Positions 2,875 through 19,968 of a stretch of 64,000 nt of DNA are shown piece by piece. The DNA is taken from assembly GCA_017522105.1 (NCBI GenBank), contig JAFXAA010000024.1, forward strand, positions 1 through 64,000, in the 5' to 3' direction. Each line of letters begins with the position of its first letter. Position 1 is the stretch's first letter. Source of the DNA: Bacteroidales bacterium. Its GTDB lineage: Bacteria > Bacteroidota > Bacteroidia > Bacteroidales > P3. Position numbers and translations under genes: made by a program. The notes beneath the pieces were generated by a model that ran no database searches, had not been told where the DNA came from, and worked only from the letters and a program-made list of their open reading frames with translations.

Positions 2875-2906
2875 TTTGGTCAATCCGGAAAAAGTTCGTA
2901 TTTTTG
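2875..2906 (+). promoter_or_regulatory. promoter of the DUF4007-led operon
   Basis: TTTG at 2875-2878 and TATTTTTG at 2899-2906 are 20 bp apart. The leader to ATG 3029 is about 115 nt and starts with a short inverted pair CTTAC...GTAAG around 2912-2931. No other promoter is evident before 13.8 kb, so all seven genes downstream are probably one transcript. Confidence 0.75.
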
Positions 2907-3028: not shown

Positions 3029-3898
3029 ATGACAGACACGCAAGTGACAAAATATTGCTTCTCGGGACATGAGTCGTTCCCCTGCAAGACCCTCTGGCTG
3101 AAGAAGGGATACGATTTCGTCAGCGCAGGACTCGATTTCAATGCCCCCGATGCTGTGGTGCACCTTGGAGTGGGTAAGAATATGGTGGCTTCTATCCGCT
3201 ATTGGATGCGGGCCTTTGGTATATTAGATAGTTCCGAACTGACATCATTAGCTCATTACATCTTCGATGATACCTCCGGCTGCGATCGTTATCTGGAAGA
3301 CATAGCCTCTCTGCAACTACTTCACTTCGTACTAGTAAACAACGGAGAAGCGTCCATCTATCGGATGCTCTTCTGCGGTCTTCAACGTGAACGCAACACT
3401 TTCGACCGTGAACAGGTGCTAAACTATGTGTCGCTTAAGATGGCGGAAGCCGGCAAACAGAAACTCTTCAACGCAAACACCGTGAAGAAGGATATTGCTG
3501 TCTTGTTGCAGAATTATTGCCTTCCCCGCAAGCCGCAGGGCAACGAAGACTTCTCATCGCTAATGATTGACCTTGACTTTATCCGTCAGAACAGCGAGGA
3601 CGGCAACTACTATTTCAACACCGAGGGGAAGCGTCCAATCATTTCGGACGTTTTCCTTTGCGCACTCCTTATGCTGCGAACCGAAACAGGCGACAGTAGC
3701 ATCCCCTTCGATACCATCCAAAGCCGTATCGGTCTCACCTATTGTATGACAGACAGCGAAACCACCAGTATGCTACGTGGTCTTTCGACCGACTATCCCG
3801 ACCTACTCTCCTACAATGATGTGGCTGGTGTACGGCAAATACAGCTTGTCGGGGATATTGATTATTACAAAGTGTTAGACAATTACTATGGCAAATAA
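3029..3898 (+). CDS. DUF4007 family protein, first gene of the candidate phosphorothioation-type operon
   Basis: The 289-aa product opens with YCFSGHESFPCKTLWLKKGY at about residues 9-28 and then VVHLGVGKNMVASIRYWMRA at about 45-64. These are the hallmark blocks of DUF4007. In known genomes this family sits beside PAPS-reductase-family (DndC-like) genes and phosphorothioate-type restriction genes. Its biochemical role is not established. A helical, DNA-binding or adaptor role is only a guess. The stop overlaps the start of the ATPase gene by 11 bp, so the two are translationally coupled. Codon use is more A/T-rich than the backbone genes. Confidence 0.85.
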   Translation: MTDTQVTKYCFSGHESFPCKTLWLKKGYDFVSAGLDFNAPDAVVHLGVGKNMVASIRYWMRAFGILDSSELTSLAHYIFDDTSGCDRYLEDIASLQLLHFVLVNNGEASIYRMLFCGLQRERNTFDREQVLNYVSLKMAEAGKQKLFNANTVKKDIAVLLQNYCLPRKPQGNEDFSSLMIDLDFIRQNSEDGNYYFNTEGKRPIISDVFLCALLMLRTETGDSSIPFDTIQSRIGLTYCMTDSETTSMLRGLSTDYPDLLSYNDVAGVRQIQLVGDIDYYKVLDNYYGK

Positions 3899-6800
3899 AA
3901 TATCCCTCTCCGCTAATCTTGAGAACGGATTCTCCGATAGTTCAAGTTATATTGCCACTCCTAATGTGCGGCAAAGTATCCGTACTATCATTGACGACTT
4001 TCATGCAGGCATTCATTCCTTTACCTTAGTTGGCTCATATGGTACAGGAAAATCCAGCTTCCTTCTTGCTGTTGAATCTGACCTAAAGGGACATAACAAG
4101 AAACCTCTTTTGTTCAACTCGTCGACTCTCTCGTCAGCTGATAGATACAACATCGTTAATATAGTAGGTGACTATGAGGAGTTGTCCGTATTGCTCAAAA
4201 GAGCACTTTGTGTGGAGGGGAGCCGTATTAGCGCTGTGGATGAAGTGAAACACCATTATAGCGTCTGTCAGAAAAAGGGAGAGTTCCTGGTTCTTGTGAT
4301 AGATGAATTTGGTAAAGTACTGGAACATGCGGCAAAACACAACCCAGAGAAAGAGCTATATCTCTTGCAAAAGATAGCTGAATTTGCAAATGGTGCAGAT
4401 AGACAGATGCTTTTCATTACTACATTGCATCAAAACTTTGGCGCATATGCAAAGAGTCTTTCACAAGAGCAACTGAATGAATGGACGAAAGTGAAAGGCC
4501 GTTTTAAGGAGATACCCTTTGTGGAACCCATAGAACAGATCTTGCAACTTGCAGCACAGAAATATACTATACAACACAACAAACCCACAAAGGCTATCAA
4601 AAAGCTCTGGAAGTTGGCTCGAGAAACACAAATGGTTTCTCCAGAGTTTACTCTCCAGTCAGCAGAGCAAATCTATCCTCTTGACCCATTTTCAGCATTT
4701 GTTGTTACCTCTGCCATTCGTAAGTATGGACAGAATGAGCGCTCTCTATTCACGTTTTTGGCATCTAAAGGGAATGGGTCGGTTTCCGACTTCTCGCCCA
4801 AAGAAAACCTCACATACAATCTCGTTGACGTATACGACTACATAGTGTACAATTTCCAGTCATACATTCGAGATACGAACGTTGATATTATGAACTGGAA
4901 TGCTATGCAAGTGGCCATTGAGAGAGTTGAGGGACAAGTCTGGGAAGACCACAAGCAAATGATAGCTGCCATAGGACTTACAAAAGCCATTGGATTGCTC
5001 AATCTGTTTGGAATTGCTGGGTTTAAGTTGGATGAAAAACAGTTCTCGGAATATGCACAATCAGCAATGATGATGCCTGGTGCAGATGAGATAATCCGCA
5101 AACTTAAAGAAATGAAGATTGTTCGATATGCAACTTACCGTGAACGCCTGATGTTATTCGAGGGAACAGATGTAGATATTGAAGCAGAAATTCGCGAGGC
5201 TTCGCTTGTTGTTCCTCGTCCGGTGGCGTTTGTTGATGAGTTGAATGTTTTCTTCAATAAACGTATATCGCCCGTAAAAGCGCATTTCTATCAAAAAGGC
5301 ACTCCGAGATTTTTCGACTATCTTGTGCTTGATGCTCCAACGAACATCTCACCATCTGGAGATACTGACGGGTATATTGAACTGATATTTTCCACCCCAA
5401 AAGATATTCTGGAAGAAGTAAAGAAAGCAAGTACAGATTCAGACAACGCCCTGATATTTGCCGTTTTTCTTAACACTAACAATATCGTTGACCACCTCCA
5501 TAACATCAAAAAATACTCGTATCTTCTCGACCGAGTACTAGACAAGAACGATCGTGTGGCTGTCTCGGAGATAAAGAAAATGAAGGAGTACGAAGAAAGC
5601 TTATTGAACAAGGCTATCAGCGACAATCTCTTTTCCTATCGCGACCGTGTTGTATGGGTATTCAATGGGAAGGAGCAACGGGTTGAATCTCATCGCGACT
5701 TCAATAGGTTGCTTTCTACAGTTTGCGACAAAGTCTATTCTCTCACGCCCGTATTAAGCAATGAATTGTGTAACAAACACAAACTGAGTGGTACCATTTC
5801 TGCCGCTCGAAAGAATTATCTTGTACAACTCGTAGAACACAATCAGGAAACTGATATGGGATTCCCAGAGGATAAATTTCCTCCAGAGAAGACCATCTAT
5901 TATTCTCTGTTGAAGAATACTGGTTTGCATCTCAATGGGGAATTCACAGACAAACCTTCGAACGATGGTTTTATGCCAATATGGCAGGCTTGTGAAGATT
6001 TTCTCAGCACCACAGTCAACAAACCGCGCAAGGTTTCGGAGTTAATAAAGCTGCTCTCCAATCGCCCATATAAAGTAAAGCAGGGATTGCTCGATTTCTG
6101 GATTCCAACCTATCTATTCATGAGACGACAGGAATTTGCTCTCTATGATAGTAATACCGGAGCTTTCATTCCGAATGTGAATATGGAATTCTTTGAGTTG
6201 TTGCAGAAACATCCTTCAGATTTTGAAGTTAAGAAATTCGCTGTTGATGGAGTGAAACTTGGTTTCTTCAATCAATATCGTCGGTTTGTGAACCTTGGGG
6301 ACGAATTTGCCATTACCAATACAAGTTTCATTGAAACCATCAAGCCATTCCTGGCATTCTATGCGAGATTGAATGATTACACAAAACATACTCGCAAACT
6401 TGACCACGAGTCAACTCTTCGATTCCGCGAAGTTCTTTCAAAAGCTAAAGATCCGGAGAAAGCGTTCTTTGAGGATTTGCCGGAAGCACTCGGCTTTGAT
6501 AAAAATCAATTGAAGCAAGAAGAATTCATCAACCAGTATGGTGATATTGTCCAAAGAGCCATCCGTGAATTACGCACATGCTACACGCAGCTAATAGATC
6601 GTATTGAGCAGTGTGTTGTTGAAGGGTTAGGACTTGATTCATATGATTACAACGAGTATATCCTCGAAATACGCAAAAGACTTGCAAATATTAAAACCCA
6701 TTTGCTGACAGACAAACAGCGTGAATTCTACCAGCACGCCACCACAGAATATGACAATCGTATTCAATGGTATCAGTCAATATGCTATACAATATTGGAG

Positions 6801-7112
6801 CAGAGGCTTGATACAATGCGGGATGAGCAAGAGGAGAAACTGACAGAAGACCTAGTGTATATGTTCCGTGAGTGCGAGAAGTATGCAGATATTTCAAAAG
6901 TGCTCAGTGAGAACGACAAGAGTGATGCCTATTCCATTGATATGGTGACAAACCGAGGGACGAATGTTAGAACAATGACATACAAATTGCCGGAAAAGGA
7001 TAAGGCAGCATCTGCAAAGTTGGAGAAAGAAATAGGAAAGTTGCTTAAGGGAGACGACAATATGGTCGTATGCACTCTTCTGTCGATACTCAACAAAAAA
7101 CTGACGAAATGA
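3888..7112 (+). CDS. large P-loop ATPase of the candidate defence operon
   Basis: This 1074-aa protein has a Walker A motif GSYGTGKSSF at residues 48-57 and a Walker B-like segment LVLVIDEFGKVLEH at about 134-147. A conserved LFITTLHQNFGAYA follows at about 175. The rest (about 250-1074) is a long, mostly helical region without a motif I recognise. It resembles the big ATP-binding partners found with DUF4007, comparable in size to BrxC- or DptH-class ATPases but without a HerA signature. The likely role is ATP-driven sensing or complex assembly in phage restriction. It overlaps DUF4007 by 11 bp upstream and the DndC-like gene by an ATGA (7109-7112) downstream. No frameshift is seen. Confidence 0.8.
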   Translation: MANKISLSANLENGFSDSSSYIATPNVRQSIRTIIDDFHAGIHSFTLVGSYGTGKSSFLLAVESDLKGHNKKPLLFNSSTLSSADRYNIVNIVGDYEELSVLLKRALCVEGSRISAVDEVKHHYSVCQKKGEFLVLVIDEFGKVLEHAAKHNPEKELYLLQKIAEFANGADRQMLFITTLHQNFGAYAKSLSQEQLNEWTKVKGRFKEIPFVEPIEQILQLAAQKYTIQHNKPTKAIKKLWKLARETQMVSPEFTLQSAEQIYPLDPFSAFVVTSAIRKYGQNERSLFTFLASKGNGSVSDFSPKENLTYNLVDVYDYIVYNFQSYIRDTNVDIMNWNAMQVAIERVEGQVWEDHKQMIAAIGLTKAIGLLNLFGIAGFKLDEKQFSEYAQSAMMMPGADEIIRKLKEMKIVRYATYRERLMLFEGTDVDIEAEIREASLVVPRPVAFVDELNVFFNKRISPVKAHFYQKGTPRFFDYLVLDAPTNISPSGDTDGYIELIFSTPKDILEEVKKASTDSDNALIFAVFLNTNNIVDHLHNIKKYSYLLDRVLDKNDRVAVSEIKKMKEYEESLLNKAISDNLFSYRDRVVWVFNGKEQRVESHRDFNRLLSTVCDKVYSLTPVLSNELCNKHKLSGTISAARKNYLVQLVEHNQETDMGFPEDKFPPEKTIYYSLLKNTGLHLNGEFTDKPSNDGFMPIWQACEDFLSTTVNKPRKVSELIKLLSNRPYKVKQGLLDFWIPTYLFMRRQEFALYDSNTGAFIPNVNMEFFELLQKHPSDFEVKKFAVDGVKLGFFNQYRRFVNLGDEFAITNTSFIETIKPFLAFYARLNDYTKHTRKLDHESTLRFREVLSKAKDPEKAFFEDLPEALGFDKNQLKQEEFINQYGDIVQRAIRELRTCYTQLIDRIEQCVVEGLGLDSYDYNEYILEIRKRLANIKTHLLTDKQREFYQHATTEYDNRIQWYQSICYTILEQRLDTMRDEQEEKLTEDLVYMFRECEKYADISKVLSENDKSDAYSIDMVTNRGTNVRTMTYKLPEKDKAASAKLEKEIGKLLKGDDNMVVCTLLSILNKKLTK

Positions 7113-8209
7113 ACGTGAGGCACATATTAGGCATTTCTGGAGGAAAAGACAGCGCAGCCCTTTCCATCTATCTCAAACAGAAGTATCCTGAATTGAAGAT
7201 AGAGTACTACAATTCTGATACAGGTTGTGAACTGGCAGAAACAGAGTTGCTCATTGACCGTCTCGAAGCATATTTGGGGAAGATAGTTCGATTACGTGCG
7301 GCAAAAGAAAGTCCTGAACCTACGCCATTTCATCATTTCCTTAAAGCAGCCGGCGGCTTTCTCCCTTCTCCACAAGCTCGCTGGTGCACTCAGAAGATGA
7401 AGTTGCAGGAGTTTGAGCGATATGTGGGTGACGATATGGCTGTATCATACGTTGGCATTCGTGGTGACGAAGACCGTGATGGTTATATCTCCTCCAAACC
7501 GAATATTCAGGCGGTATTTCCATTCCGCAAAAATATTTGGAGTCTTGATGTTATCAACAAGTTCCTTGGTAACGACAATCTCGACCAGCTGGTGGCACTC
7601 TATGAACAGTTGTGTCCGCAGGGATTGATGCACGATGAGATAATTGAGACGGCCAAGCGCAAAATAGATAAACAGTTCTTCTATTCGAAGAAACTGAATG
7701 CACTACTCGATTACGATGTTCGCCTATTTAATCACGCAGTATTTGAGTATTTGAAGACAACCGACTATCCCGTAGGCAAGCTGGATAAATTCCCTCTGCT
7801 AGATAATACGGATGTGCTGGTAAAAGAAGATATTTTCCGTTTATTGCGCGAAAGCGGAGTGGGGGTTCCTGCCTATTATGAGGAGATACCCTTTGAGGTG
7901 GACGGAAAGCAAGGGGCATATTGTCGCAGCCGTTCTGGGTGTTATTTCTGTTTCTTCCAACAAAAGATAGAGTGGGTGTGGCTTCTCGAACAACATCCCG
8001 ACTTGTACAAAAAAGCCATGGAGTTTGAGAAAGATGGCTACACATGGAATCAAGGAGAAAGTCTGGCTGAACTTGCGAAACCTGAACGTGTGCGCCAAAT
8101 TAAACTTGATATAATCAAACGTCAGGAAGAAAACCGCCAGCAGAATAAAGGCACAACGCTGGTGGACATTCTTGGTGGTGATATAATGTGTTCAAATTGT
8201 TTCATCTGA
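7109..8209 (+). CDS. DndC-like phosphoadenosine phosphosulfate reductase-family protein
   Basis: I start at ATG 7109, which overlaps the preceding stop (ATGA), giving 366 aa. The PP-loop SGGKDS is at residues 10-15. RWCTQKMK places Cys93, and YCRSRSGCYFCFF gives Cys272, Cys278 and Cys281. One plus three cysteines in this order is the pattern that holds the [4Fe-4S] cluster in DndC/SspD-type proteins. Another pair, CSNC, sits at residues 361-364 near the C-terminus. The family adenylates or activates substrates at the PP-loop; DndC/SspD members act in replacing a DNA backbone oxygen with sulfur. Assimilatory sulfate reduction is unlikely given the neighbours. A cysteine desulfurase (DndA/SspA) is not in the window and would have to be supplied by IscS or SufS elsewhere. 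Confidence 0.85.
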   Translation: MNVRHILGISGGKDSAALSIYLKQKYPELKIEYYNSDTGCELAETELLIDRLEAYLGKIVRLRAAKESPEPTPFHHFLKAAGGFLPSPQARWCTQKMKLQEFERYVGDDMAVSYVGIRGDEDRDGYISSKPNIQAVFPFRKNIWSLDVINKFLGNDNLDQLVALYEQLCPQGLMHDEIIETAKRKIDKQFFYSKKLNALLDYDVRLFNHAVFEYLKTTDYPVGKLDKFPLLDNTDVLVKEDIFRLLRESGVGVPAYYEEIPFEVDGKQGAYCRSRSGCYFCFFQQKIEWVWLLEQHPDLYKKAMEFEKDGYTWNQGESLAELAKPERVRQIKLDIIKRQEENRQQNKGTTLVDILGGDIMCSNCFI

Positions 8210-8210
8210 T

Positions 8211-10487
8211 ATGGGAAACCTACAAGAAATAGAATGGCCTAAGAGCCGACGTTATAAATCGGGAACCGAATGGGAACCTGCTGGTTTTTTCAGCGACGGT
8301 TTACTGGAGGCTTCCAGGTTTGACTTAATGTTGGGCTTTTTCTCATCTACAGCCATCAATGTACTTGCTGACGGCTTTGCTGCATTCATTGCCAATGGGG
8401 GAAGGATGCGAATGATTATCAATGATATCTTGAGTTTTGAGGATTGGAATGCATTCCATGTGGCTGAAGACAATAGCACCTCAATCACTTATTTTGACCT
8501 TTCCAACATTCAGCAGTTGAAGTCAGTTCTCAGTAAACGAGGGAAGCACTTTTTTGAATGCTTATCTTGGATGATACGAAATAATCGCATTGATATTCAG
8601 ATTGTTGTTCCTAAAAGTGGCATTGGAATAGCTCATACAAAATGTGGCCTTTTCTCTGACGGTACAAACAATGTTGCATTTGAAGGATCTTGTAATTTCT
8701 CATCTACCGCATTGCTACAAAACAACGAAAGCTTATCGGTTTTCTGTTCATGGGATGGGGAACGTGACAAATATCGTATTGATTGTATCGCAGAAGACTT
8801 TGAAAAAACTTTTTCTGGCAACGACCAATCCGTCAAATACCTTAAAGTTGATGAGATTTCAGCTCAAATAACTGATACATTTGAGCAAAAGCAATTGTCA
8901 CAATTAATAACTGACGAGAAGGATATTATAAAAAAAGGTTTGTCAACGACAGTTGAGAAAGCCCTTCAACGAGCAAAAAAAAGAGTTTTAGATGCATTGC
9001 AGGATTATTCCCCTAAAGACGAGAATTCATCCGAATTAACTGATTTTTGCATTCCACATTTCCCATATCCATCAGGACCTCGCGACTACCAAAAAAAAGC
9101 ATTCGATAACTGGAAAAACAACGGCCAAAAAGGCCTTTTCGCGATGGCTACTGGAACAGGTAAAACCATTACATCATTAAATTGTCTGTTGGAGATATAT
9201 CAACGTAAAGGTTACTACAAAGCCCTTATCTTGGTCCCTACCCTGACTCTTGTTGAACAATGGGAAGGTGAGTGTCGGAAATTCAATTTTGATAACATTG
9301 TAAAGGTTTGTTCCAATAACGATACATGGGAATCGTCTATAGCAAATTTAACGGCGATAGAACTATCTACCGATGACACAAACAAAATTTCTTATATTAT
9401 TATTTGCACTTACGCTTCTTTTGCTCATTCATCGGTATTCATGAGGTTGAACAGATTTCCTGAAGACAAAGTATTACTGATTGCAGACGAGGCTCACAAT
9501 ATTGGCGGAGGCAAAGTGGCACAACGTTTGTCTGATATAGTTTATTTCCGCAGAATAGGTCTCTCCGCTACCCCTGAAAGGCAATTCGACGATGAAGGAA
9601 ATAATAGGTTGAAAGAATTTTTCGGATGTGATGGTGACTATACCTTTGAATATTCTATGCAAAAGGCCATTCAGAACGGAGCTCTGTGTCCCTATTATTA
9701 CTATCCTCATATTATCAGACTAACAGATCGGGAAATGTCAGATTATGTCGACATTACCATGAGAATTGTACGGATTATGGGATATAGTGACGAGCAAAGC
9801 AAAGAAACCTTAAAAAGACTCTTGCTAAAACGCAAACGTATAATACATAAGGCTGAGCATAAAGTAGAAACGCTCAAAGAAATTGTAGAAAAAAGATTTA
9901 CGGAAACCGGTTCATTGAAATACACTTTAGTATATGTACCCGAAGGAAATAAACCCGATGATCAAACAGCGGATATTTTTGACACCAGCGATTTTTTGGA
10001 GAAAAACGACGATGACCAACATCTTATCGATAAATATACTGCGATAATTCGCGATATTGACCGACACGTTGTTGTAAGGCAGTTTACTTCTGAATCATCA
10101 GAAAGAGAAAAAATGCTTCGTGAATTTGCAAATGGAGATTTGCATGTACTAACCTCAATGAAATGCCTAGATGAAGGTGTTGATGTTCCGCGAAGCGAAT
10201 TCGCCATCTTCTGTTCAAGCACAGGTAATCCTCGCCAATTCATTCAACGCAGGGGGCGTGTGCTTCGAACACATCCAGAAAAACCTTTTGCAACAATACA
10301 CGATATGATTGTTTTACCATACGAATCTGAAGCCCCAAGTGGTGATTTGTTTGCAATCGAAAAAAGTATGGTGGAGAGCGAAGTAAAGCGAGTTAGAGAT
10401 TTTGCATTGCTGTCAAAAAACTGCCATACTACAATCAACACATTAGATAAAATACTGGAAATGTATAATATATCAATATTTGAATAA
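8211..10487 (+). CDS. PLD-nuclease/SF2 helicase restriction protein
   Basis: The 758-aa protein has an N-terminal phospholipase D-like region with AHTKCGLFSDGT near residue 140 followed by FEGSCNFSSTAL, a single HKD-type site. It has a superfamily 2 helicase core: ATGTGKT at about 314-320, ADEAHN near 424, SATPERQ near 452 and QRRGRVLR near 678. The same architecture is known as a DNA phosphorothioation system restriction enzyme. It is the only clear nuclease candidate of the operon, so it probably translocates on and cuts unmodified DNA. The start is 1 bp after the preceding stop. HxK is followed by Asp at x5 instead of the usual x4, which may be a family feature. Confidence 0.85.
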   Translation: MGNLQEIEWPKSRRYKSGTEWEPAGFFSDGLLEASRFDLMLGFFSSTAINVLADGFAAFIANGGRMRMIINDILSFEDWNAFHVAEDNSTSITYFDLSNIQQLKSVLSKRGKHFFECLSWMIRNNRIDIQIVVPKSGIGIAHTKCGLFSDGTNNVAFEGSCNFSSTALLQNNESLSVFCSWDGERDKYRIDCIAEDFEKTFSGNDQSVKYLKVDEISAQITDTFEQKQLSQLITDEKDIIKKGLSTTVEKALQRAKKRVLDALQDYSPKDENSSELTDFCIPHFPYPSGPRDYQKKAFDNWKNNGQKGLFAMATGTGKTITSLNCLLEIYQRKGYYKALILVPTLTLVEQWEGECRKFNFDNIVKVCSNNDTWESSIANLTAIELSTDDTNKISYIIICTYASFAHSSVFMRLNRFPEDKVLLIADEAHNIGGGKVAQRLSDIVYFRRIGLSATPERQFDDEGNNRLKEFFGCDGDYTFEYSMQKAIQNGALCPYYYYPHIIRLTDREMSDYVDITMRIVRIMGYSDEQSKETLKRLLLKRKRIIHKAEHKVETLKEIVEKRFTETGSLKYTLVYVPEGNKPDDQTADIFDTSDFLEKNDDDQHLIDKYTAIIRDIDRHVVVRQFTSESSEREKMLREFANGDLHVLTSMKCLDEGVDVPRSEFAIFCSSTGNPRQFIQRRGRVLRTHPEKPFATIHDMIVLPYESEAPSGDLFAIEKSMVESEVKRVRDFALLSKNCHTTINTLDKILEMYNISIFE

Positions 10488-10488
10488 T

Positions 10489-10725
10489 ATGGGACACAAT
10501 CTTACAAATGCAGACAAGATTCTGCAAGCGGTACTAAAAGACCCTGGCCTAGTTAATTTAGGTGAATATCGGCCTCAGGAGTACGAAACTATTTCCGATG
10601 CTTTAAACTCGGATAATGCGTACGTATACACCGTTGCCAAAATAATTGACGAGGGAAGTATGGGGAATAAGTCAGAAAAACAGCTGTACAACGAGATTGC
10701 AAACTATTTATTTAAGAACATATGA
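10489..10725 (+). CDS. 78-aa small operon protein
   Basis: ATG 10489 follows the helicase stop by 1 bp, and the last codons overlap the next ATG (ATGA at 10722-10725). The product is small, acidic and probably all-helical, with LTNADKILQAVLKDPGLVNL near the N-terminus and QLYNEIANYLFKNI at the end. It occupies the place where Dnd clusters often keep a small protein (DndE or a Dnd-associated small protein), but I see no DndE motif. The tight coupling on both sides makes it a real gene. Function unknown; a stoichiometric partner of the DndD-like ATPase is plausible. Confidence 0.75.
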   Translation: MGHNLTNADKILQAVLKDPGLVNLGEYRPQEYETISDALNSDNAYVYTVAKIIDEGSMGNKSEKQLYNEIANYLFKNI

Positions 10726-12878
10726 TACTAAAGCAGATAACAATAAAAAATTTCCGCCTGTATTATGATAAGAATACATTCGACTTATCGGATAGGCTTA
10801 CTCTCATCATTGGCGACAATAACGATGGAAAAACGACGTTCTTTGAGGCTTTGGAATGGTTGTTTGACACATCAACAGAAGATAAAAATATAGTCAATAT
10901 TTCTGCTAAACGAAAGTCCGAGTTAAGTATTGGCGAATCTGATACAATGAGTGTATCAATCGTGTTTGATCATGATGGGGAAAAGGAGATTGAAAAACAA
11001 TTCACTTTTACCAAGCAGGCAGATAGATCGATTAACACTAGTGGCTTCAAGTTTATTGGCTACGAAGAGCGTGGTTCTGAACGGGTACAGGTATCTGGTA
11101 AATCATTACTGGAAAGTTGCTTTGAGGCAACGATTAGAAAGTATTGTCTTTTCAAGGGTGAATCTGACTTGAAAGTGTTTGATAATGAAACGGCATTAAA
11201 AACGTTGGTAAATAAGTTTTCCAATATTCGAGAGATTGACAAATACCTAGAACTTGCTGAACGATTTGAAGCCGACTCGCAATCTGTTGTGGCCAAAGAA
11301 ATGAGGAACAACAAGAAAACTGAACAAAAAGCAAAACTTTTAGAAGCAGATCGTTTAGAAAACAATAAAGCGTTGCAGCGTATTAGAAACGAGATGCAAG
11401 AAACGCGTGAAGAGATTAACAGTTACTCTATCCGTATAGATAAGCTTGAACAAAATCAAGATAAGTTTGAAATTTTCCAAGAACTGAAAAAAAGAATAGA
11501 GAATCTAATAAGCAAAAAAAATGAAGTTGCCAGAAGGGCTTATTGCGAGTATAATACCAATCTTTTGGATAGATTATGGATTCTTCAGTCGTTCCCCCAA
11601 ATATTAGACGAGTTCCAGAAAAAAGCCGACGAATTGAGTCGTAAAAAGAGAGATCTGGAAACAAAAGACATTGAAAGAAAGGCTGTGGAGAAGGGGAAAA
11701 AAGAGCTTGCAGATAGTTTAATGAATGGTGCAACACCTCTCCCGTGGTATGTTCCAGATGAAAATACTATGCGGGAAATGATTGACGAACACATCTGTAA
11801 GGTATGTGGCCGAGAGGCGCCAGAAGGTTCTGAGGCTTATAATTTCATGGTAAAGAAGTTGAATGATTTTCTAGCAATGCAGAGTAAGAAGTCTGAGAAA
11901 GTAATTGAAGACGAGACTCCTCTGTTTTCCAATCAGTACATTGATGAAATAAGAACAATGTCCAATGCTTTGGGTGGTTGGTCTAAAAAAGAAATCATTA
12001 GTTTGAGAAAAAAGATTGCAGACGAACTTGACTTTGTGCAGGCACGAAAACGTGATCTTGATAAGATAAACCAACAAATTACTGAATCAGAAGAAGAGAA
12101 AACTCGGTTGTTGCTACAAGCACAAGGATTGTCTGAAGATATGCTCGAAAAGGGATACCGTGATTACAAAGGGTTTAATGACAGGAAAAAAGATGCCGAA
12201 GTCAAAATAGCAAGATTAGAGAAAGACCTCGAGTTTGCTTTAAAAGAAAAAGAAAGGATTGATAACGAATTTAATAATCTGGCGCCACAAAGTGGCACAA
12301 CGGCAATCTTTAATCGCGTTCATCTTGCCTTTGACATGATTATGAAGGCCTTCTCTAAAGCAAAAGACCGAAATATAACAGAGTTTCTGGAAGACCTCGA
12401 AACCCAAACAAACGACTATTTCGAGAAGTTGAACATTGATGATTTTAGAGGCCGTATTGGGATATACAGAAGTGTCGATGGTACAGCATCCATAAAACTA
12501 TATAGTTCTGACGGTACCCTTATTGAGAAACCCGGTGGAGCACAAATGACCACAATGTATATGTCTGTCCTTTTTGCAATCTCAAACATCACGACATTGA
12601 AGCGAGAACAAGACTATCCTCTAATATTCGATGCTCCTACTTCATCTTTTGGAGAATACAAGGAGGACGGTTTCTACAATATTGTTGACAACATTGACAA
12701 GCAATGTATTATAGTGACTAAAGATTTGCTTATTGTAGACAAAGCCGCTAACACAAAGAAAATCGATGAAAGCGTTTTGAAGAATATGACATGCAAAGTA
12801 TATCAAATATGCAAACATCCTGGGTTTGACGATAAAGATTACACCACTCTTTTCACCACTCTTAAAAAAATACAATAA
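10722..12878 (+). CDS. DndD/Rad50-like SMC-type ATPase with zinc hook
   Basis: The 718-aa protein starts MILKQITIKNFRLYYDKNTF, the standard SMC/RecF-family first strand. Walker A GDNNDGKTTFFEAL is at residues 31-44. Two long coiled-coil arms (about 190-350 and 400-540) flank a CKVC at 359-362, a Rad50-type zinc hook. The C-terminal half-site has a signature region GGAQMTTMYMSVLFAI and Walker B YPLIFDAPTSS near 630. DndD proteins in phosphorothioation systems share this layout and are thought to open or remodel DNA for the DndC step. Its linkage with the DndC-like gene supports that role, though Rad50-like ATPases also act in other defence systems. Confidence 0.85.
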   Translation: MILKQITIKNFRLYYDKNTFDLSDRLTLIIGDNNDGKTTFFEALEWLFDTSTEDKNIVNISAKRKSELSIGESDTMSVSIVFDHDGEKEIEKQFTFTKQADRSINTSGFKFIGYEERGSERVQVSGKSLLESCFEATIRKYCLFKGESDLKVFDNETALKTLVNKFSNIREIDKYLELAERFEADSQSVVAKEMRNNKKTEQKAKLLEADRLENNKALQRIRNEMQETREEINSYSIRIDKLEQNQDKFEIFQELKKRIENLISKKNEVARRAYCEYNTNLLDRLWILQSFPQILDEFQKKADELSRKKRDLETKDIERKAVEKGKKELADSLMNGATPLPWYVPDENTMREMIDEHICKVCGREAPEGSEAYNFMVKKLNDFLAMQSKKSEKVIEDETPLFSNQYIDEIRTMSNALGGWSKKEIISLRKKIADELDFVQARKRDLDKINQQITESEEEKTRLLLQAQGLSEDMLEKGYRDYKGFNDRKKDAEVKIARLEKDLEFALKEKERIDNEFNNLAPQSGTTAIFNRVHLAFDMIMKAFSKAKDRNITEFLEDLETQTNDYFEKLNIDDFRGRIGIYRSVDGTASIKLYSSDGTLIEKPGGAQMTTMYMSVLFAISNITTLKREQDYPLIFDAPTSSFGEYKEDGFYNIVDNIDKQCIIVTKDLLIVDKAANTKKIDESVLKNMTCKVYQICKHPGFDDKDYTTLFTTLKKIQ

Positions 12879-12884
12879 TACAAC

Positions 12885-13460
12885 ATGGAAAACATTAGAC
12901 TTTTTGACAAATGGTTAACCATAGATCCTCAATGGGAAACAAGATACACCGATATACTGACCACATTCTGCAATTATGGTAGCGGGGAGAATTCTCTTCG
13001 TGAATCGAAGGGAAAGATATTCGGTGCTGGCTATGAACTGTTTATCGTGGCATTCTTTATTGGGCTATATTATAACCAGCGCAAGCCTCTCACAAGTGAT
13101 GCCGCCAAAAGAAAATCCTTTGGACATAGAGTGGAATATTGGGGAAATATAGAAACACGTTTAGGTCGTCAGGCATACCCTAAGATTCGTGATTATATGT
13201 TTGCCGCGTTGATCGCTCGTACAGATATTGATTTTATTGCGTTGGAAAAAGACGAACTTCCCCTGAAAGATGCCGTTTCTGCACTAAAATGCACAATGGA
13301 GGAATATGCCAATTATGGTTTTTCTTTCATTCAGGATAAGGTTGACGAAGACTCGGGATTCTTCTATAAAGATCCTGGTTTTCTCGAGGTATTCCTTGAG
13401 ATAGGCCAGCAGAAACACGTATCCAATCCGCCAATAAATGAGCCGGAATCGCTAGATTGA
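12885..13460 (+). CDS. 191-aa last protein of the defence operon (possible Dnd-associated protein)
   Basis: It begins 6 bp after the DndD-like stop. A central block SKGKIFGAGYELFIVAFFIG followed by LYYNQRKPL resembles the hydrophobic motif of small phosphorothioation-associated proteins. The rest, including a C-terminal acidic stretch, I do not recognise. There is no signal peptide and the hydrophobic block is short for a membrane span, so it is probably cytoplasmic. It ends the A/T-rich operon; the next 450 bp are non-coding or decayed. Confidence 0.7.
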   Translation: MENIRLFDKWLTIDPQWETRYTDILTTFCNYGSGENSLRESKGKIFGAGYELFIVAFFIGLYYNQRKPLTSDAAKRKSFGHRVEYWGNIETRLGRQAYPKIRDYMFAALIARTDIDFIALEKDELPLKDAVSALKCTMEEYANYGFSFIQDKVDEDSGFFYKDPGFLEVFLEIGQQKHVSNPPINEPESLD

Positions 13461-13909: not shown

Positions 13910-15037
13910 ATGAAAAAAGCTTTTGTATATGGTGTTGCTGTTGAAGGAGAGAACTTTACGGACCGCATTGAGGAGACCCGACGACTGAAAAGGGATTTTG
14001 AAAACGGCCAAAATGTAGTGTTGATATCCCCTCGCCGAATGGGGAAAACATCATTGGTGAGACGTGTGATATCCCAAGTGGACACCAACAAGATTGCCGT
14101 TGTACACCTCGACATCTACGACTGCCGTACGGAGTATGAATTCTACAACAAGTTGGCGACAGCGGTGCTGAAACAGGTCTCGAAGAAAGGGGAGTTGATG
14201 CTCCGCAACATCAAGGAATTCCTGACACGGTTGACACCCAGGGTCTCGTTCGGCATCGACCCCGCCAACGAGATGTCGGTGTCGTTGGGTATTGCCCCCG
14301 AAGACTATTCACCCGAAGAGATACTGCAACTGCCGGAGAAGATGGCACACAAGATAGGGAAACATATCGTGATATGTATCGACGAATTCCAGCAGATAGG
14401 CAATTTCCCCGACTCGATAGATGTGCAGAAGCGCATACGTGGGGTGTGGCAGCTACAAGAAGAGGTGTCCTACTGTCTCTACGGCAGCAAGAAGCATATG
14501 CTGACCAACCTGTTCCAGAACAAACGGATGCCGTTCTATCAGTTTGGAGATATCCGATTTCTCCAGCCCATAGCCCTCGATGACTGGATTCCTTTCATCC
14601 GAGGTAAATTTGAGGAGAGCGGGCTGTTGATCTCCGATGAGCAAATCACAAGGATATGCGAGACGGTGGAGTACCAGTCGTCGTATGTGCAGCAGTTGGC
14701 GTGGAATGTGATGCTATGTTGTGACAAAGTGGTGGATGAGACGGCGATGGAGGAGGCCTTGGACGACCTTATTGGCCAAAGCTCGATCCTTTTCCTGCAG
14801 CAGACAGAAGGTCTGTCGTCTTACCAGATGAATTTCCTCAAAGCCCTCGTGGCGGGTGAGACAGGCGATTTTACATCGGCCGCCATTCTCAAGAAATATC
14901 ACTTAGGGACAAAATCAAATATCAGCCGACTGACGGACACACTGATCAAGAAAGAGCTGATAGAGAAAACGGGCCGCACGATAACCATAGCAGATCCCGT
15001 GTTCCGCTTGTGGATGCAGCGTGAGCATAACGATTAA
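13910..15037 (+). CDS. ATPase_2 (archaeal-type AAA) family protein
   Basis: The 375-aa product has Walker A SPRRMGKTSLV at residues 39-49 and Walker B HIVICIDEFQQI near 150. A C-terminal winged-helix region (about 285-375) includes DPVFRLWMQ. This is the typical layout of the ATPase_2/DUF234 STAND-like family, common in Bacteroidetes and archaea and often linked to defence or mobile DNA. The exact role is unknown. The promoter carries a perfect palindrome, which suggests control by a dimeric repressor or self-control by the winged helix. The AlbA_2 gene follows after 27 bp on the same strand. Confidence 0.85.
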   Translation: MKKAFVYGVAVEGENFTDRIEETRRLKRDFENGQNVVLISPRRMGKTSLVRRVISQVDTNKIAVVHLDIYDCRTEYEFYNKLATAVLKQVSKKGELMLRNIKEFLTRLTPRVSFGIDPANEMSVSLGIAPEDYSPEEILQLPEKMAHKIGKHIVICIDEFQQIGNFPDSIDVQKRIRGVWQLQEEVSYCLYGSKKHMLTNLFQNKRMPFYQFGDIRFLQPIALDDWIPFIRGKFEESGLLISDEQITRICETVEYQSSYVQQLAWNVMLCCDKVVDETAMEEALDDLIGQSSILFLQQTEGLSSYQMNFLKALVAGETGDFTSAAILKKYHLGTKSNISRLTDTLIKKELIEKTGRTITIADPVFRLWMQREHND

Positions 15038-15064
15038 GAATACTAACCAATAATATATTGATAT

Positions 15065-16786
15065 ATGGCTACGATTGAATATAAAGTAGGCGAAATGTAC
15101 GAGCTTGAGACCATCGAGATTCGTCAGACGCCTTTTGGCAGCGACTATATTGCGCTCCGTGACGATGTGCGTGACACCTATCGGGCGTACAATATCCTGA
15201 AGTGCCAATACGAAACGTTGCCGAAAAAGATACAGGTGGAGTGTGTCTCCGTTGATGAATTTGGACGTCCCAAGTTGCGTCAGGATTTCTATCCCATCTT
15301 GAAAAGTCTTTACAAGAAAGGGGAATGCTACAGGTTTACCGTGACCGATGTGAAAACCGACTACAACTCGATGGATAAGGTATCTTACTATCAAGTTGAA
15401 GACGACAACGCCATTCATCGTATGTATATCCACGATGGGAAGCCCAATCTGGAAATCGGCAAGGAGGTTGTCCTGCAAGTGGATTTGATCAATGCAAAGG
15501 GATACCTTGACCTGAAAGTGCCCGAAGTGGAGCCGACAGTCGTAGTTGACACACAGGTAGGAGTGGCGAATGTCTCGGTAAGAACCGGCAAGCGACCCAG
15601 AATCAAGAAGGGAGAACCGGCACCTACTCTGCTTGACGTCAACGAGGACACCCACAATGAGTTGAAGACCTCAATCGTATTCAAGGAGGGCAAAGCAGAC
15701 ATAGACAACCAGATGTTTGTCATAGCCAGAGAGTTGGTTGCATTGATGAACACCGATGGCGGCAACCTGTATATCGGTGTGACCGACCAGGATCACAGGG
15801 TACAGGGTATAGAGGCCGACTACCCCTTCTTGAACAGCAGCGAGAACGACGACTACAACGGTTCATACAAAGAGTCGGAGGACGGTTACGAACTAAAGAT
15901 CCGCAACTATATGCGATGGGCCTCACAAGGTGTAGCCAATGAATTGATGGAGTTCGAGTTCAAGAGGACTGCCGATGGCAAGACCTATTGCATAATCAAT
16001 GTCAAGAAATCCAGCCGTCCGGTATGGCTGAGAGGTAACCTGCTTTATATTAGAACCGGTAACAAGGTGGATTTGAAAACGGGCGACAACCTGACCGATT
16101 TCATCATCAGGAAGATGAGTCGGCAAATCAATCCGGGTATTACGGAAGAGCAGATTACCAAGAGTTTCCTGGAAATGCTGAATGTGCATAGAAAATCGGT
16201 TGCCGCCGCCCCCAAACCACAGACGTCGGAAATAGCTTACTACCTGAGCTGGAAGGACGATGCCACCTGTGTCAGGACAAAGAAACCGTTAACTGACACC
16301 AATGTCATTTTCCAGATACCCGTTACCAAAGACCTTTATACTGCCGACCTCTATTTCTGTTATGATAGTGGCACTGTGAATAAAATCAGTCTTAAGAAGT
16401 TTAAGCAAGGCTGCAATTTGGGCGATACGATTAATCGCGCATATTACACAAAACGCAAGTTGATGAATATATTCCTTGCACATGGAACGCAATTTATCGC
16501 CGTGTATGGGGCCGACGAACATGGATACGAATATGTAAAGGTACACCGTATGACCGATCTTCCATCCACAAAAAGTGCAGAAAACCAAGGTTCGAGAATT
16601 GTCCCTACTGGTATGGAGGCGCGTAAATACAAGCTGGTTCATGCTATAGATATCAATAACTGCAGGCGGCTGCTGGTGGATTTGGCAGCTGGCCGCACGA
16701 ACAACCCGGGTACTGCCTTAAATAGTGTTGCCTGTCCGGATGATATAAAGTATATCGACAACTATCCATTACATTTAACCGATTAA
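15065..16786 (+). CDS. AlbA_2/Schlafen-like putative DNA-binding protein
   Basis: In this 573-aa protein residues about 195-350 form an AlbA_2 domain: FKEGKADIDNQMFVIAREL then LVALMNTDGGNLYIGVTDQD, and later LLYIRTGNKVDLKTGDNLT. The N-terminal 190 residues are a beta-rich region I do not recognise, perhaps OB-like repeats (two similar KxxxYRFTVTDV-type strands). The C-terminal 200 residues are also unrecognised. AlbA_2 proteins occur in transcription regulation and in defence-associated Schlafen-like proteins. It is probably co-transcribed with the ATPase and with the 51-aa ORF that follows 2 bp after its stop. Confidence 0.75.
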   Translation: MATIEYKVGEMYELETIEIRQTPFGSDYIALRDDVRDTYRAYNILKCQYETLPKKIQVECVSVDEFGRPKLRQDFYPILKSLYKKGECYRFTVTDVKTDYNSMDKVSYYQVEDDNAIHRMYIHDGKPNLEIGKEVVLQVDLINAKGYLDLKVPEVEPTVVVDTQVGVANVSVRTGKRPRIKKGEPAPTLLDVNEDTHNELKTSIVFKEGKADIDNQMFVIARELVALMNTDGGNLYIGVTDQDHRVQGIEADYPFLNSSENDDYNGSYKESEDGYELKIRNYMRWASQGVANELMEFEFKRTADGKTYCIINVKKSSRPVWLRGNLLYIRTGNKVDLKTGDNLTDFIIRKMSRQINPGITEEQITKSFLEMLNVHRKSVAAAPKPQTSEIAYYLSWKDDATCVRTKKPLTDTNVIFQIPVTKDLYTADLYFCYDSGTVNKISLKKFKQGCNLGDTINRAYYTKRKLMNIFLAHGTQFIAVYGADEHGYEYVKVHRMTDLPSTKSAENQGSRIVPTGMEARKYKLVHAIDINNCRRLLVDLAAGRTNNPGTALNSVACPDDIKYIDNYPLHLTD

Positions 16787-16944: not shown

Positions 16945-16974
16945 TCACTAACCACTATCCACTAACCACTCTTA
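16925..16974. repeat. CCACTAA/CCACTAG tandem repeat array
   Basis: About six copies of a 7-9 bp word (ACTAACC, ACTAGCC, ACTATCC) fill the gap between convergent genes. It runs from the last codons of the 51-aa ORF into the stop of the helicase gene at 16972. It is related to the CCACTGA family at 223-270 and in purL. Confidence 0.85.
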
Positions 16975-19968
16975 CATCGCTATCAGGTGACCTAACACCG
17001 AATAGTAGATCAGGCGGTCACGGACGGTGATGCCTGCCGCATGGAGGGCACGCTCGTAGGCGGAGAGCTGCACGGCATATTTGCCGACATATTCGGGTTT
17101 GTCCTTGCTCAAGACGTTGGCGACGACGCCGGGATAGTTCTTGAAGTCGATGAGCACACATTCCTTGGGCGAGGTGTACCACAGCAGGTCTATCTCGCCG
17201 ACGACGACCTGGCCGTCGAGCTGGTGGCGGAAGGGCACCTCGTGAGCTATCTTGAAGGCTTTGCCGTAGCGGCGCTCGAGGAAGCCGTAGAGTGCGGCGA
17301 CAGAGCGGAGGATGCTGTCGGCATCGGGCAGCATGCGGCCCATGCCGTAGGCGTCGATGATGCGTTGTGCGCGGCGCAGCATCTGCGTGCGGTCGGCCTC
17401 GGGGCGGTAGATGGCGTAGATGTTGTGGATGCAGGTGCCCATGATGTCGTATTCGTCGCCTGTGCCACGCTGGATGCGCTGCGGGGTTTCGTCCTGGACG
17501 GGGTATATCACGCGGGGCTGCACACTCGCCTGCAGCGTGGGGTCTTCCATACGGCTTGGCGAGAGGCATTTGCCTTCGGGTTCGGATGAGAGTGGGTTGT
17601 CTTTGCGGTGGAGATAGGAGGATGGCTCGGGCAGGCTCTGATAGGTGCCGTCGTCGTTCACGCGCACAAACCTGGAGAGCTCGGCGCCCGGGATGTTGCC
17701 CCACACGGCGCGGAAGTCGTTGTTGCCATCGAGCTGGGGTGTGATGCCGCAATTTATGAGCCACGAGAGTTTTTTCCCCTCGAGGGAGGTGGTGACGAGG
17801 TAGTCGCGCGCGCGTGTCACACCGACATAGAGGAGGCGGCGGAGCTCGTAGCTCACGCGGTCGACATAATGCACATAGGGTGTCAGGTTGCGGATGGCGT
17901 TGGCCATTGCGTCGGGGAGTTTGGAGTTGGAGGCGGCCAGGAACGGCGGCAGGCAGGTGAGGTAGTAGTCGGAATAGAGCTGGAGGGCGCTGGGGTCGCT
18001 CACCCTGACGTAGTTGACACCGATGGCGAAGCGTCTGAGGAGGCTGTTCTCTATCAGCTCGTCGTTGTCGAGCGAGCAGAGGATGACGATGTGCCACTGC
18101 AGTCCTTTTGAGTTGTGGTAGTTCATCACGTGGACACCTTCCTGGAAGAAGCCTTTTTTGACGACGACGCCCCCGTTCTCGTCGTCGAGGTGGTCGAGGT
18201 AGTGTTCGACCGTGGAGGCCTCGCCCAAGGTCTCGGCTGTGGTGTCGAAGTTTTTGGCGTCCTCGATGACGGCCTGCAGGTTGCGCTGGCGCTGTGCGGC
18301 CTTGCCCCATTGCTGGCAGCGGTTCATGAGGTCGAGTTCGATGACGATGGACTTCACCATGTCGGCCACAGGGAGTATTTTGAGGCGCTCTTTCATGGCG
18401 TCGAGGCGGCAGAAGTCGGGCAGGTCGTTGCCTTTCAGGACCTCTTCGGCTGGCATGCCGTAGAGCAGGTGTGCTATCTCCGCCTTGAGGAGCGGCGATT
18501 CGTCAATCATGAAGTTGAGGAGCAGGCGTACGAGGCGCAGCTCTTTGCTGTTGCTGTCGACCTTGCTTTCGCAGACCACGGGGATGTCCTTGGCCTTCAA
18601 GGCATTGGTGATGTTGTTGACGTCCTCGTTGGTGCGTGCGAGGATGGCGATGTCGGAGAGCGTCACGGGGCGCGGTTGGCCGGAGTGCTGGTCGATGACC
18701 TGCGTGATGTCGCCGTTGCCGTCGACCATTGCCCTCACCTGGCGCGCTATGGATCGGAAGAGCTTCTCTTTGTTTACCGAAGGTCTCTGCTTGCCGTCTT
18801 CGAGGGTTTTCATCTGTTCCCAATGCCAGAGTGCGGGGGTGCCGTTAGGCAGCGGCTCTGTGCGGTAGGCTTCGAGGCGTACCATATCGGGGTTGATGTC
18901 GTCGAAGACAGGGACGAAGACGGCGGAGGTGGTGTCGACCAGCGGCTTCACCGAGCGTCGCGAGAGCTTGAGGGTGTCGTAATCCATGCCGTTGACGCCG
19001 TTGTTCTTGTCTTGGATGATGCGGTCGGTCAGCGCCTGGACGAGCAGGGTGTCGCAGCCGCGGAAGCCGTAGATGGCCTGTTTGGGGTCGCCCACCCAGA
19101 AGCTGCGTTCCACGAGGTCGGACAGGAGGTCGAAGATCTTGATTTGTTTCGGGTTGGAGTCCTGGAATTCGTCGACGAAGACGTATTTTATCGTTCGGGA
19201 AATCTCGGCGCACACCTCGTCGTCCTGGAGGAGGGTGATGAACTTGTTCTCCATGTCGTTGAACTCGATGAGTCCATACTCCTCCTTGAAGTTGTCGAAC
19301 AGCCGCTGCCAGTCGCTGGCGATGCGGAAGATGCGCTGGATGCAGTCGTAGTAGATGGAGCGCAGTTCGTCCTCGCTTTTTGGGGTGTTGTTCAGGAAGG
19401 AGAAGCTGCCGTTGGGGTCCATGAGGAGGTGTGCCAGCTGGAGCGACTTCTCGCGTGAAAGGGAGAGGTCGTTGATGCCGAAGGTGTCGGCTTTGTCGAC
19501 AAGGTCCTGCACCAGGGGTTTCCAGAAGCCGTAGTTGAACTTGTTGGTTGTGGCTTTTTTGATGTTGAATGCCTCGGCATATTCCATGAAAGCGGCGAAA
19601 TCGTCGTCGGTGACCACCTTGGTCATCGTGCGGTTGAGGTAGTCCTTCTTGGAGGCGTCGGTGATGGTCTCGACCGAAGCGCTCAGTCCCAGCTTGTACC
19701 AATACTTCTTGATGTAGAGGAGGCCGATGGAGTGTACGGTGCCTATGGCTGCGGAGTCGAGCTCGGCGGCCTGTGCAATCAACCCATCATGCAGGAACTT
19801 CTCGCGGGCGTTCTTCTTGAGGTCGTCGGCAGCGGCGTTGGTGAATGTGGATGCGATGATCTGCGAGGGTGAGCAGAGGCCCTTCTTCACCTTGTCGACC
19901 ATCTCGGAGGTGAGGCGGTAGGTCTTGCCCGAGCCGGCGCCGGCGTTGATATATGTGATGTTTTTCAT
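16972..19968 (-). CDS. UvrD/RecB-type helicase-nuclease (AddA-like)
   Basis: The 998-aa protein has all superfamily 1A landmarks: INAGAGSGKTYRL (Walker A, residues 7-19), VFVDEFQDSN, GDPKQAIYGFRG, LSRRS, and LRRLLYVGVTRARDYL. Its C-terminal PD-(D/E)xK nuclease reads VVGEIDLLWY then CVLIDFKNYPG. It should unwind and degrade double-strand ends with its partner, in recombination repair or defence. The start overlaps the stop of the AddB-like gene (ATGA). At under 1000 aa it is shorter than most Bacteroidetes AddA/RecB proteins. The antisense strand has long open frames that are shadows. Confidence 0.85.
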   Translation of the reverse strand: MKNITYINAGAGSGKTYRLTSEMVDKVKKGLCSPSQIIASTFTNAAADDLKKNAREKFLHDGLIAQAAELDSAAIGTVHSIGLLYIKKYWYKLGLSASVETITDASKKDYLNRTMTKVVTDDDFAAFMEYAEAFNIKKATTNKFNYGFWKPLVQDLVDKADTFGINDLSLSREKSLQLAHLLMDPNGSFSFLNNTPKSEDELRSIYYDCIQRIFRIASDWQRLFDNFKEEYGLIEFNDMENKFITLLQDDEVCAEISRTIKYVFVDEFQDSNPKQIKIFDLLSDLVERSFWVGDPKQAIYGFRGCDTLLVQALTDRIIQDKNNGVNGMDYDTLKLSRRSVKPLVDTTSAVFVPVFDDINPDMVRLEAYRTEPLPNGTPALWHWEQMKTLEDGKQRPSVNKEKLFRSIARQVRAMVDGNGDITQVIDQHSGQPRPVTLSDIAILARTNEDVNNITNALKAKDIPVVCESKVDSNSKELRLVRLLLNFMIDESPLLKAEIAHLLYGMPAEEVLKGNDLPDFCRLDAMKERLKILPVADMVKSIVIELDLMNRCQQWGKAAQRQRNLQAVIEDAKNFDTTAETLGEASTVEHYLDHLDDENGGVVVKKGFFQEGVHVMNYHNSKGLQWHIVILCSLDNDELIENSLLRRFAIGVNYVRVSDPSALQLYSDYYLTCLPPFLAASNSKLPDAMANAIRNLTPYVHYVDRVSYELRRLLYVGVTRARDYLVTTSLEGKKLSWLINCGITPQLDGNNDFRAVWGNIPGAELSRFVRVNDDGTYQSLPEPSSYLHRKDNPLSSEPEGKCLSPSRMEDPTLQASVQPRVIYPVQDETPQRIQRGTGDEYDIMGTCIHNIYAIYRPEADRTQMLRRAQRIIDAYGMGRMLPDADSILRSVAALYGFLERRYGKAFKIAHEVPFRHQLDGQVVVGEIDLLWYTSPKECVLIDFKNYPGVVANVLSKDKPEYVGKYAVQLSAYERALHAAGITVRDRLIYYSVLGHLIAM

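Follow-up and report, generated by a model that had tools for sequence, protein, structure and literature searches.

Apparent joining of an SspBCD phosphorothioation module to a PbeABCD restriction module in a seven-gene Bacteroidales operon

Introduction

In the SspABCD-SspE and SspABCD-SspFGH systems, SspABCD marks one DNA strand with phosphorothioate (PT) at CCA, for which nicking by SspB is required, and SspBCD was reported without SspE or SspFGH in 2,211 of 2,678 cases (PMC8092258). In the DndCDEA-PbeABCD system of Haloterrigena jeotgali A29, the combined modules lower the plating of virus SNJ1 about 10,000-fold and PT must be present in the cell; PbeABCD is not toxic to PT-free cells, and Southern blots were reported without cleavage. 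According to the same source, PbeAC is found without dndCD in 320 of 553 cases and without any modification gene nearby in 165 of 553 (PMC6459918). Rakesh et al. considered cleavage likely in view of the HKD domain, and described PbeC as a zinc-hook ABC ATPase, PbeD as a DndE cognate and PbeB as a small protein that evolves rapidly (PMC10853773). Here, a 64,000-nucleotide stretch of a Bacteroidales bacterium (positions 1 to 64,000 of contig JAFXAA010000024.1, assembly GCA_017522105.1; hereafter the window) was analyzed, in which seven genes most probably form a PT-based antiphage system composed of two known modules, SspBCD and PbeABCD.

No description of an Ssp-Pbe pairing was found in the open-access literature searched, supplementary files lying outside that scope. 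In the sole paper found to mention SspBCD as well as PbeA, the two are named separately in the text available (PMC8053081). A survey of human microbiome genomes that counted dnd, ssp and pbeA-D places Prevotella tannerae ATCC 51259 under ssp; its accessible text makes no separate mention of ssp together with pbe, although strains of this sort could fall within its 'MA' class (PMC7464106). A review covers ssp and pbe, in the part available, without their pairing (PMC12707154), and a study that connects homologues of SspBCD with BREX type 4 has no Pbe, CxC or DndE in its main text (PMC12839542).

Identity of the two modules

The PADLOC families of the larger proteins, the zinc hook of the ABC ATPase and the positions of the two small proteins together point to an SspBCD PT module joined to PbeABCD. 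SspB matched the PADLOC SspB model at 1.1e-83, Pfam DUF4007 at 233 bits (cut-off 27) and, by phmmer, the solved SspB structure 6juf at 1.8e-12, and SspC matched its PADLOC model with E=0 and 1196 bits, the BrxC model giving 6.4e-70. SspD scored 6.9e-87 on the PADLOC SspD model versus 1.1e-05 on DndC, and reached 19 of 290 bits on TIGR03183. Homologues of SspB, SspC and SspD, the last distinct from DndC, are all present. The SGGKDS motif of SspD is kept in 12/12 aligned sequences, and C106, C291, C294, C374 and C377 are invariant in the same 12/12 and in 18/18 of a second alignment. The predicted SspD structure (predicted local distance difference test, pLDDT, 80.8) returned PP-loop thiolases and PAPS reductases among its fold-search matches, none of them significant, and phmmer against solved structures gave no match for SspD.

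These assignments change part of what an earlier note, made from the letters of the window, had claimed. The modification half had been read there as a DndC-like Dnd variant, whereas the SspB, SspC and SspD matches place it in the known SspBCD. The four cysteines that the note numbered 93, 272, 278 and 281 exist and correspond to C106, C285, C291 and C294 when counted from the ATG at 7070, but C285 is not general, being kept only in 7/8 sequences of the window's own type (defined below), and C374 and C377 are invariant as well. A plain sulfate-assimilation reductase is ruled out, since the nearest NCBIfam reductase-like model gave 3.6e-08 against 6.9e-87 for SspD. The comparison with PADLOC families, proposed in the note as a check of novelty, placed most of the single proteins in known systems and left the seven-gene combination outside them: the proteins belong to known families, and the novelty is their combination, a variant of PT-based defence and not a new kind.

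Several other assignments were considered and rejected. Dnd membership was rejected because no DndC, DndD, DndE, DndFGH or DndB model leads in PADLOC for nine window proteins; no DndB was found in the window's genome, the other Dnd genes having been searched among these nine proteins. An SspE effector was rejected as the genome has no match to the single SspE model searched (PDLC02783), and a methylation partner as Pfam found no methyltransferase family on the nine proteins. SspF, SspG and SspH are absent from the listed PADLOC matches of the window proteins.

In the restriction half, the HKD-helicase expected of PbeABCD is present, PbeA matching its PADLOC model with E=0 and 1032 bits; on the window proteins, Pfam recognized DUF4007, helicase and ABC ATPase domains. 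Across 63 of 72 aligned PbeA sequences (rows cut by contig ends excluded), H142 of the HKD site is kept in 62/63, the other being an unread residue, D150 in 60/63, with three other letters, and K144, S160 and N162 in 63/63, as are the helicase residues K318, T319, D426, E427, H429, S452, A453, T454, R680, R683 and R686. The HKD site in the window's PbeA is intact, in keeping with cleavage or nicking. The zinc hook of PbeC (CKVC, 359-362), noticed already in the earlier note, has C359 and C362 invariant in eight aligned homologues, and a mid-protein hook motif is lacking in five DndD proteins labelled in this analysis. An iterated profile groups the window's PbeC with hooked ATPases from Dnd-linked loci and from haloarchaea at 556 bits, the window being in the training set. 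The note had taken this DndD/Rad50-like protein for the modification ATPase; judged by the hook, and by its occurrence with the helicase and two small proteins in the gene order of PbeABCD, it is probably PbeC instead.

Of the two small proteins, the 81-amino-acid one is assigned to PbeB by position only, a small open reading frame (ORF) occupying this place in many relatives. The 191-amino-acid protein shares its family with the small proteins encoded after PbeC in related loci, among them Dnd-linked and haloarchaeal ones, and on a plasmid of Natribaculum breve a match to the profile of this family follows DndC-DndD and PbeA-PbeC. The counterparts in the published system are given as 66 amino acids for PbeB and 152 for PbeD (PMC6459918).

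Recurrence of the pairing

A sample of the phylum (395 genomes; individual genomes and loci are denoted by G and L numbers) contained 21 genomes in which SspD is strong, scoring at least 164 bits, and eight with a PbeA above 700 bits. Both occur in five genomes, the window's included, and in all five they lie within 10 kb of each other (Fisher p=1.3e-5). Since DndC, identified by PADLOC, adjoins PbeA in the remaining three, a PT module stands beside 8/8 PbeA of this strength. A diverged PbeA lies beside SspD in G167 and G270. The other 14 SspD loci of the sample, read over about 10 kb around each, have different neighbours.

The named genomes were scanned with the window's PbeA, which covered at least 591 stretches and at least 347 relatives, the best 80 loci being kept; SspB, SspC or SspD is carried by 28 of these 80, a share that describes the closest loci to this PbeA and is no census. 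Twelve of the 28 hybrid loci are from Bacteroidota. The window's type here means the eight loci of the window's genome (G000) and L094-L100; in six of these eight, the ORF of SspD directly adjoins that of PbeA (spacing -13 to +10 nucleotides). The other 16 of the 28 are of a second type and mostly from Bacillota, with one each from Methanobrevibacter, Fusobacteriaceae and Acholeplasmatales and two from records named only bacterium. In 14/16, a BrxP-like reductase gene is present, ahead of SspB in 12 and after SspC in L129 and L149, and in the remaining two the contig ends on the reductase side; a desulfurase-like gene precedes PbeA in 15/16 (BLAST). PADLOC called the reductase BrxP in 3/3 cases checked (L110, 3.2e-77; L131, 3e-78; L121, 3.2e-80), and in L110 it also named SspB, SspC, SspA, PbeA and PbeC. 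A plasmid search yielded 22 records with a PbeA relative, all below 60% identity.

A tree was built by a quick method, with midpoint rooting, from 72 PbeA proteins of at least 600 amino acids, shorter ones such as L074 and L149 being excluded. The Ssp label of L099 and L107 was assigned manually, SspD having been seen in their loci, and the DndC and DndD labels were seeded from three loci, the three DndC seeds and the DndC of L111 being confirmed by PADLOC. The rows comprise 20 with Ssp, 13 with Ssp and a BrxP-like reductase, 20 with Dnd, 10 with neither and nine cut by a contig end. In the clade tests, which omit the long-branched L073 and the nine cut rows, a single clade of the 32 Ssp-linked rows against the 30 Dnd-linked or partnerless rows was rejected (p-AU 3.9e-56), so the partner changed at least twice. 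The minimum number of partner changes is four with L073, three without it and two between Ssp and Dnd alone, the tree giving no direction of gain or loss. The 17 Bacteroidota Ssp-linked rows, of which the eight window-type rows are a starred subset, all fall to the same side of a branch that has a support of only 61.

Other neighbours of SspBCD were also recorded. In G111, G211, G069 and G042 (L080, L084, L085 and L086), Pfam identified, close to SspD, an SF2 helicase together with a GHKL-type ATPase, possibly a further effector set for SspBCD, and in two diverged loci (L073:1725-5992 and L091:5252-9602) a GHKL ATPase and a partner of about 630-690 amino acids lie beside SspBCD. A protein of 807-817 amino acids with no PADLOC match at 1e-10 is encoded near SspBCD in G188, G385 and G122 (L081:5175-7598, L082:5222-7675 and L083:4053-6506). 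DndB occurs in the hybrid loci L070 (7328-8581) and L096 (8742-9995), both by PF14072, and in L102 and L104 by BLAST; in L096 and L102 it sits between SspD and PbeA. A Selenomonas hybrid locus encodes a 706-amino-acid protein between the desulfurase and PbeA (L142:7794-9914). In the rumen metagenome-assembled genome RUG11609 (L094), SspB has only 149 amino acids, no SspC was found, and a gene for a SIR2-type prokaryotic Argonaute and two others occupy the expected place of SspC (3306-8872).

Source of sulfur

No SspA- or IscS-type desulfurase was found in the cluster or in the genome, of which the assembly is 92% complete, the contig starting 3 kb upstream of the operon; the best match to the IscS model, at 119.6 bits, is the SufS. 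This SufS (TIGR01979, 522 bits, cut-off 475) is the sole strong cysteine desulfurase found in the assembly, and this housekeeping enzyme is the probable donor of the sulfur, which would be supplied from beyond the operon. The earlier note had proposed one complete modification and restriction unit with its desulfurase supplied elsewhere; a variant of the PT kind and a desulfurase outside the cluster agree with the present results, but it had overlooked that the unit is a hybrid of two described modules.

Four hybrids of another kind (G296, G265, G324 and G218) have a desulfurase gene directly 5' of PbeA, for which the best models are IscS, NifS and DndA, all below their equivalog cut-offs; it lies between both halves in G296 and heads the Pbe half on the other strand in G265, G324 and G218. 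The IscS model found nothing above 142 bits in 8/8 window-type genomes, and a match of E 1e-85 or better in 8/8 hybrids of the other Bacteroidota type and in 16/16 further SspBCD genomes, G167 and G270 included. Each window-type genome has one or two strong PF00266 enzymes (431-506 bits); NCBIfam identifies those of G000 as SufS, and those of the seven others are taken as SufS by their likeness. The eight genomes are related, several being draft or metagenome assemblies, and an IscS-type match at 1e-50 is also absent in 60/99 genomes of the order, the window's included, so that the lack of IscS in the window-type genomes may be a correlation of lineage.

SspD differs between these groups. C53 is found in 7/7 window-type sequences with the column filled, and C285 in 7/8, whereas the eight aligned SspD of IscS-linked hybrids have Lys at position 53 and Ala or Ser at 285, at least four of them with a cysteine four residues before position 53. 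A broader proposal, put forward tentatively and held to be rather doubtful, is that PbeABCD might be a restriction module that reads PT in general and has on at least two occasions been paired with Ssp-type single-strand writers, and that the writer of the window's clade might run on SufS, not on a desulfurase of the IscS, DndA or SspA type, with C53 and C285 of SspD as candidate relay residues. As no IscS-type desulfurase was found in the window-type genomes, they raise the question of whether sulfur in DNA can come from the Suf pathway.

Operon layout and genomic setting

The seven ORFs lie on the forward strand at 3029-13460, are intact, and overlap their neighbours or are separated by gaps of a few bases (Table 1), as the earlier note had described. 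Its account of an A/T-rich island behind one promoter was borne out as well: the guanine-cytosine (GC) content is 40.7% over the operon versus 58.0% over 17001-64000, where no 10.4-kb stretch falls below 54.8% (500-base steps), and the pattern TTTG-N-TAnnTTTG, which we take to be of the Bacteroidota type, has eight exact matches in the window versus 0.62 expected, one of which precedes the operon.

Table 1. Genes of the operon and the predicted promoter, in window positions
Feature	Position	Strand	Basis and remarks
sspB (DUF4007), 289 amino acids	3029..3898	+	PADLOC, Pfam, phmmer; putative DNA-reading or nicking subunit of the Ssp modification module
sspC, 1074 amino acids, BrxC-related ATPase	3888..7112	+	PADLOC; Walker A GSYGTGKS at residues 49-56, read from the sequence
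sspD, 379 amino acids, PP-loop PAPS-reductase-like sulfurtransferase	7070..8209	+	PADLOC; SGGKDS; C106, C291, C294, C374, C377
pbeA, 758 amino acids, N-terminal PLD/HKD nuclease fused to SF2 helicase	8211..10487	+	PADLOC; H142, K144, D150, S160, N162
pbeB-like small protein, 81 amino acids from TTG (78 from the first internal ATG)	10480..10725	+	Position only
pbeC, 718 amino acids, coiled-coil ABC ATPase	10722..12878	+	Walker A GDNNDGKT at 31-38; CxxC zinc hook C359/C362
pbeD, 191 amino acids, probable DndE cognate	12885..13460	+	Family and position; predicted fold
Bacteroidota-type promoter match TTTG-N20-TAnnTTTG (predicted)	2875..2906	+	Exact pattern match, 5' of sspB

The genes at 13910-16786 (an AAA ATPase and a Schlafen/AlbA protein) were left outside the system, their GC content at third codon positions (GC3) being 0.65 and 0.57 versus 0.34-0.45 from SspC to PbeD; sspB, however, also has a GC3 of 0.57, so composition alone cannot decide whether they belong. 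The GC difference between the halves (SspBC 0.428, PbeACD 0.381) was dropped as a sign of recent joining because the gap varies in sign and size across 19 hybrid loci. The window begins at base 1 of its contig (assembly size 2.28 Mb), so that the sequence further 5' is out of view. Upstream of the island, a Kinase-PolyVal domain (Pfam PF18762, kinase of polyvalent proteins) is encoded at 523-1200. On the reverse strand at 16972-22607, a UvrD-type helicase gene adjoins a PD-(D/E)XK nuclease gene by domain search, a pair which we presume to be AddAB-like.

Proposed function and alternative explanations

SspB, SspC, SspD and PbeA belong to their named families, their catalytic motifs are intact, and the pairing recurs in many genomes and in separate PbeA clades. 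From published work on relatives a likely scheme was drawn up, in which SspBCD would mark one strand and PbeABCD would use the marks to block unmarked phage DNA. SspC and SspB would recognize and nick the site, at which SspD, with a cysteine desulfurase, could insert sulfur into one strand at a short motif. PbeC, the ABC ATPase, and PbeD may scan the DNA, the PbeA nuclease-helicase could act on unmarked DNA, and PbeB may be a regulator or scaffold. PbeABCD would restrict DNA that lacks the mark and, by analogy with the haloarchaeal system, would itself need PT in the cell for its activity; self DNA would be marked by SspBCD, and the PT-licensed PbeABCD would attack or stall unmarked DNA. The pairing is a partial answer to the occurrence of SspBCD without SspE or SspFGH and of PbeAC without dndCD, and some defence systems that look incomplete might be explained by it. 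Whether PbeABCD depends on one particular writer, or responds to any PT, even one in a single strand, also becomes testable.

A number of observations weigh against the joining of SspBCD to PbeABCD in one PT-based system. We know of no PT measurement or phage test for the window's clade. The operon has no desulfurase, 10/72 rows of the PbeA tree show no PT module in view, and the 81- and 191-amino-acid proteins have no match in the PADLOC, Pfam and NCBIfam libraries. PbeA reaches 407 bits on NCBIfam TIGR04095 (Dnd restriction enzyme; cut-off 600), a match that covers the helicase part. For PbeC, the best PADLOC match is PbeC, at only 1.1e-20, with LmuB close behind at 2.7e-18, and the PADLOC PbeC models fail to separate PbeC from DndD: a DndD without a zinc hook, the one DndD seed compared with PADLOC (L075:6328-8421, G355), scored 1e-128 on one PbeC model and 1.7e-85 on DndD. 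A zinc-hook ABC ATPase is present as in PbeABCD, but given the weak PADLOC score it may be akin to DndD. The AlphaFold model of PbeD (pLDDT 85.8) has DndE 4lrv as its first match in the PDB and DndE chains in four of the top seven places, which is suggestive only of a DndE-like fold, the match being below significance (E 0.71, probability 0.38). In favour of the joining, SspC distances correlate with PbeA distances (r 0.62, n=13; 0.44, n=15) and with PbeC distances (r 0.59, n=12; 0.36, n=10), but Mantel correlations of this kind arise from shared ancestry alone too; a value of 0.107 was reported for DndCD and PbeAC by another measure (Xiong et al., PMC6459918). In Vibrio cyclitrophicus, loss of sspA is reported not to be compensated by the chromosomal iscS (PMC7188994), and the literature searched, as far as its text was available, describes PbeABCD with double-strand Dnd marks and yielded no test with single-strand Ssp marks.

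Two independent systems standing side by side in a defence island, a solitary SspBCD modification module and a separate PbeABCD, seem an improbable explanation. Defence genes do cluster, lone PbeAC and SspBCD without SspE or SspFGH have been published at the frequencies cited above, and the halves lie on opposite strands in L070, L071 and L072; such independence is difficult to reconcile with the abutting ORFs of the window-type loci, the pairing in separate PbeA clades, the PT module beside all eight PbeA above 700 bits in the phylum sample, the correlated SspC-PbeA and SspC-PbeC distances, and the PT genes that lie between the halves (a desulfurase in G296, DndB in L096 and both in L102).

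Less credible still is that the PAPS-reductase-like part makes no phosphorothioates and modifies something else or is a sensor. SspD keeps its PP-loop and five cysteines and its strong match to the SspD model, and sister loci have an IscS-type desulfurase; what speaks for this explanation is that no such desulfurase was seen in the window's genome or in seven close relatives, and that no chemistry on the clade is known to us. A decayed or silent remnant of the system, marginally the least likely of the three, could account for the missing desulfurase and for an AT-rich island in a GC-rich genome, and the relative RUG11609 shows such a state of SspB and SspC, but the seven frames of the window are open, their motifs are intact and a promoter match stands in front. 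The joined SspBCD-PbeABCD system is thus preferred over all three.

Comparison with known systems

BREX type 4 shares homologues of SspB, SspC and a PAPS reductase with the window (PMC12839542), but no PglZ or BrxL is among the listed matches of the nine window proteins; a BrxP-like reductase is used in the hybrids of the second type (3/3 checked). The CxC ABC-ATPase/DndE systems resemble the restriction half in having an HKD nuclease-SF2 helicase, a small protein, a zinc-hook ABC ATPase and a DndE cognate, the last being a probable one in the window; they are described as coupled to Dnd genes or cytosine methylases (PMC10853773), whereas in the window the coupling is to SspBCD. The SspABCD-SspE and SspABCD-SspFGH systems have SspB, SspC and SspD in the same order (PMC8092258), and differ in that the window's restriction half is PbeABCD and that no SspA or IscS was found there. 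The DndCDEA-PbeABCD system of H. jeotgali A29 has what appears to be the same PbeA-PbeB-PbeC-PbeD order, small second and fourth proteins and PT-linked restriction; however, it is archaeal, with double-strand PT introduced at GATC by DndCDEA and a desulfurase in the cluster (PMC6459918), and the window has SspBCD in place of DndCDEA.

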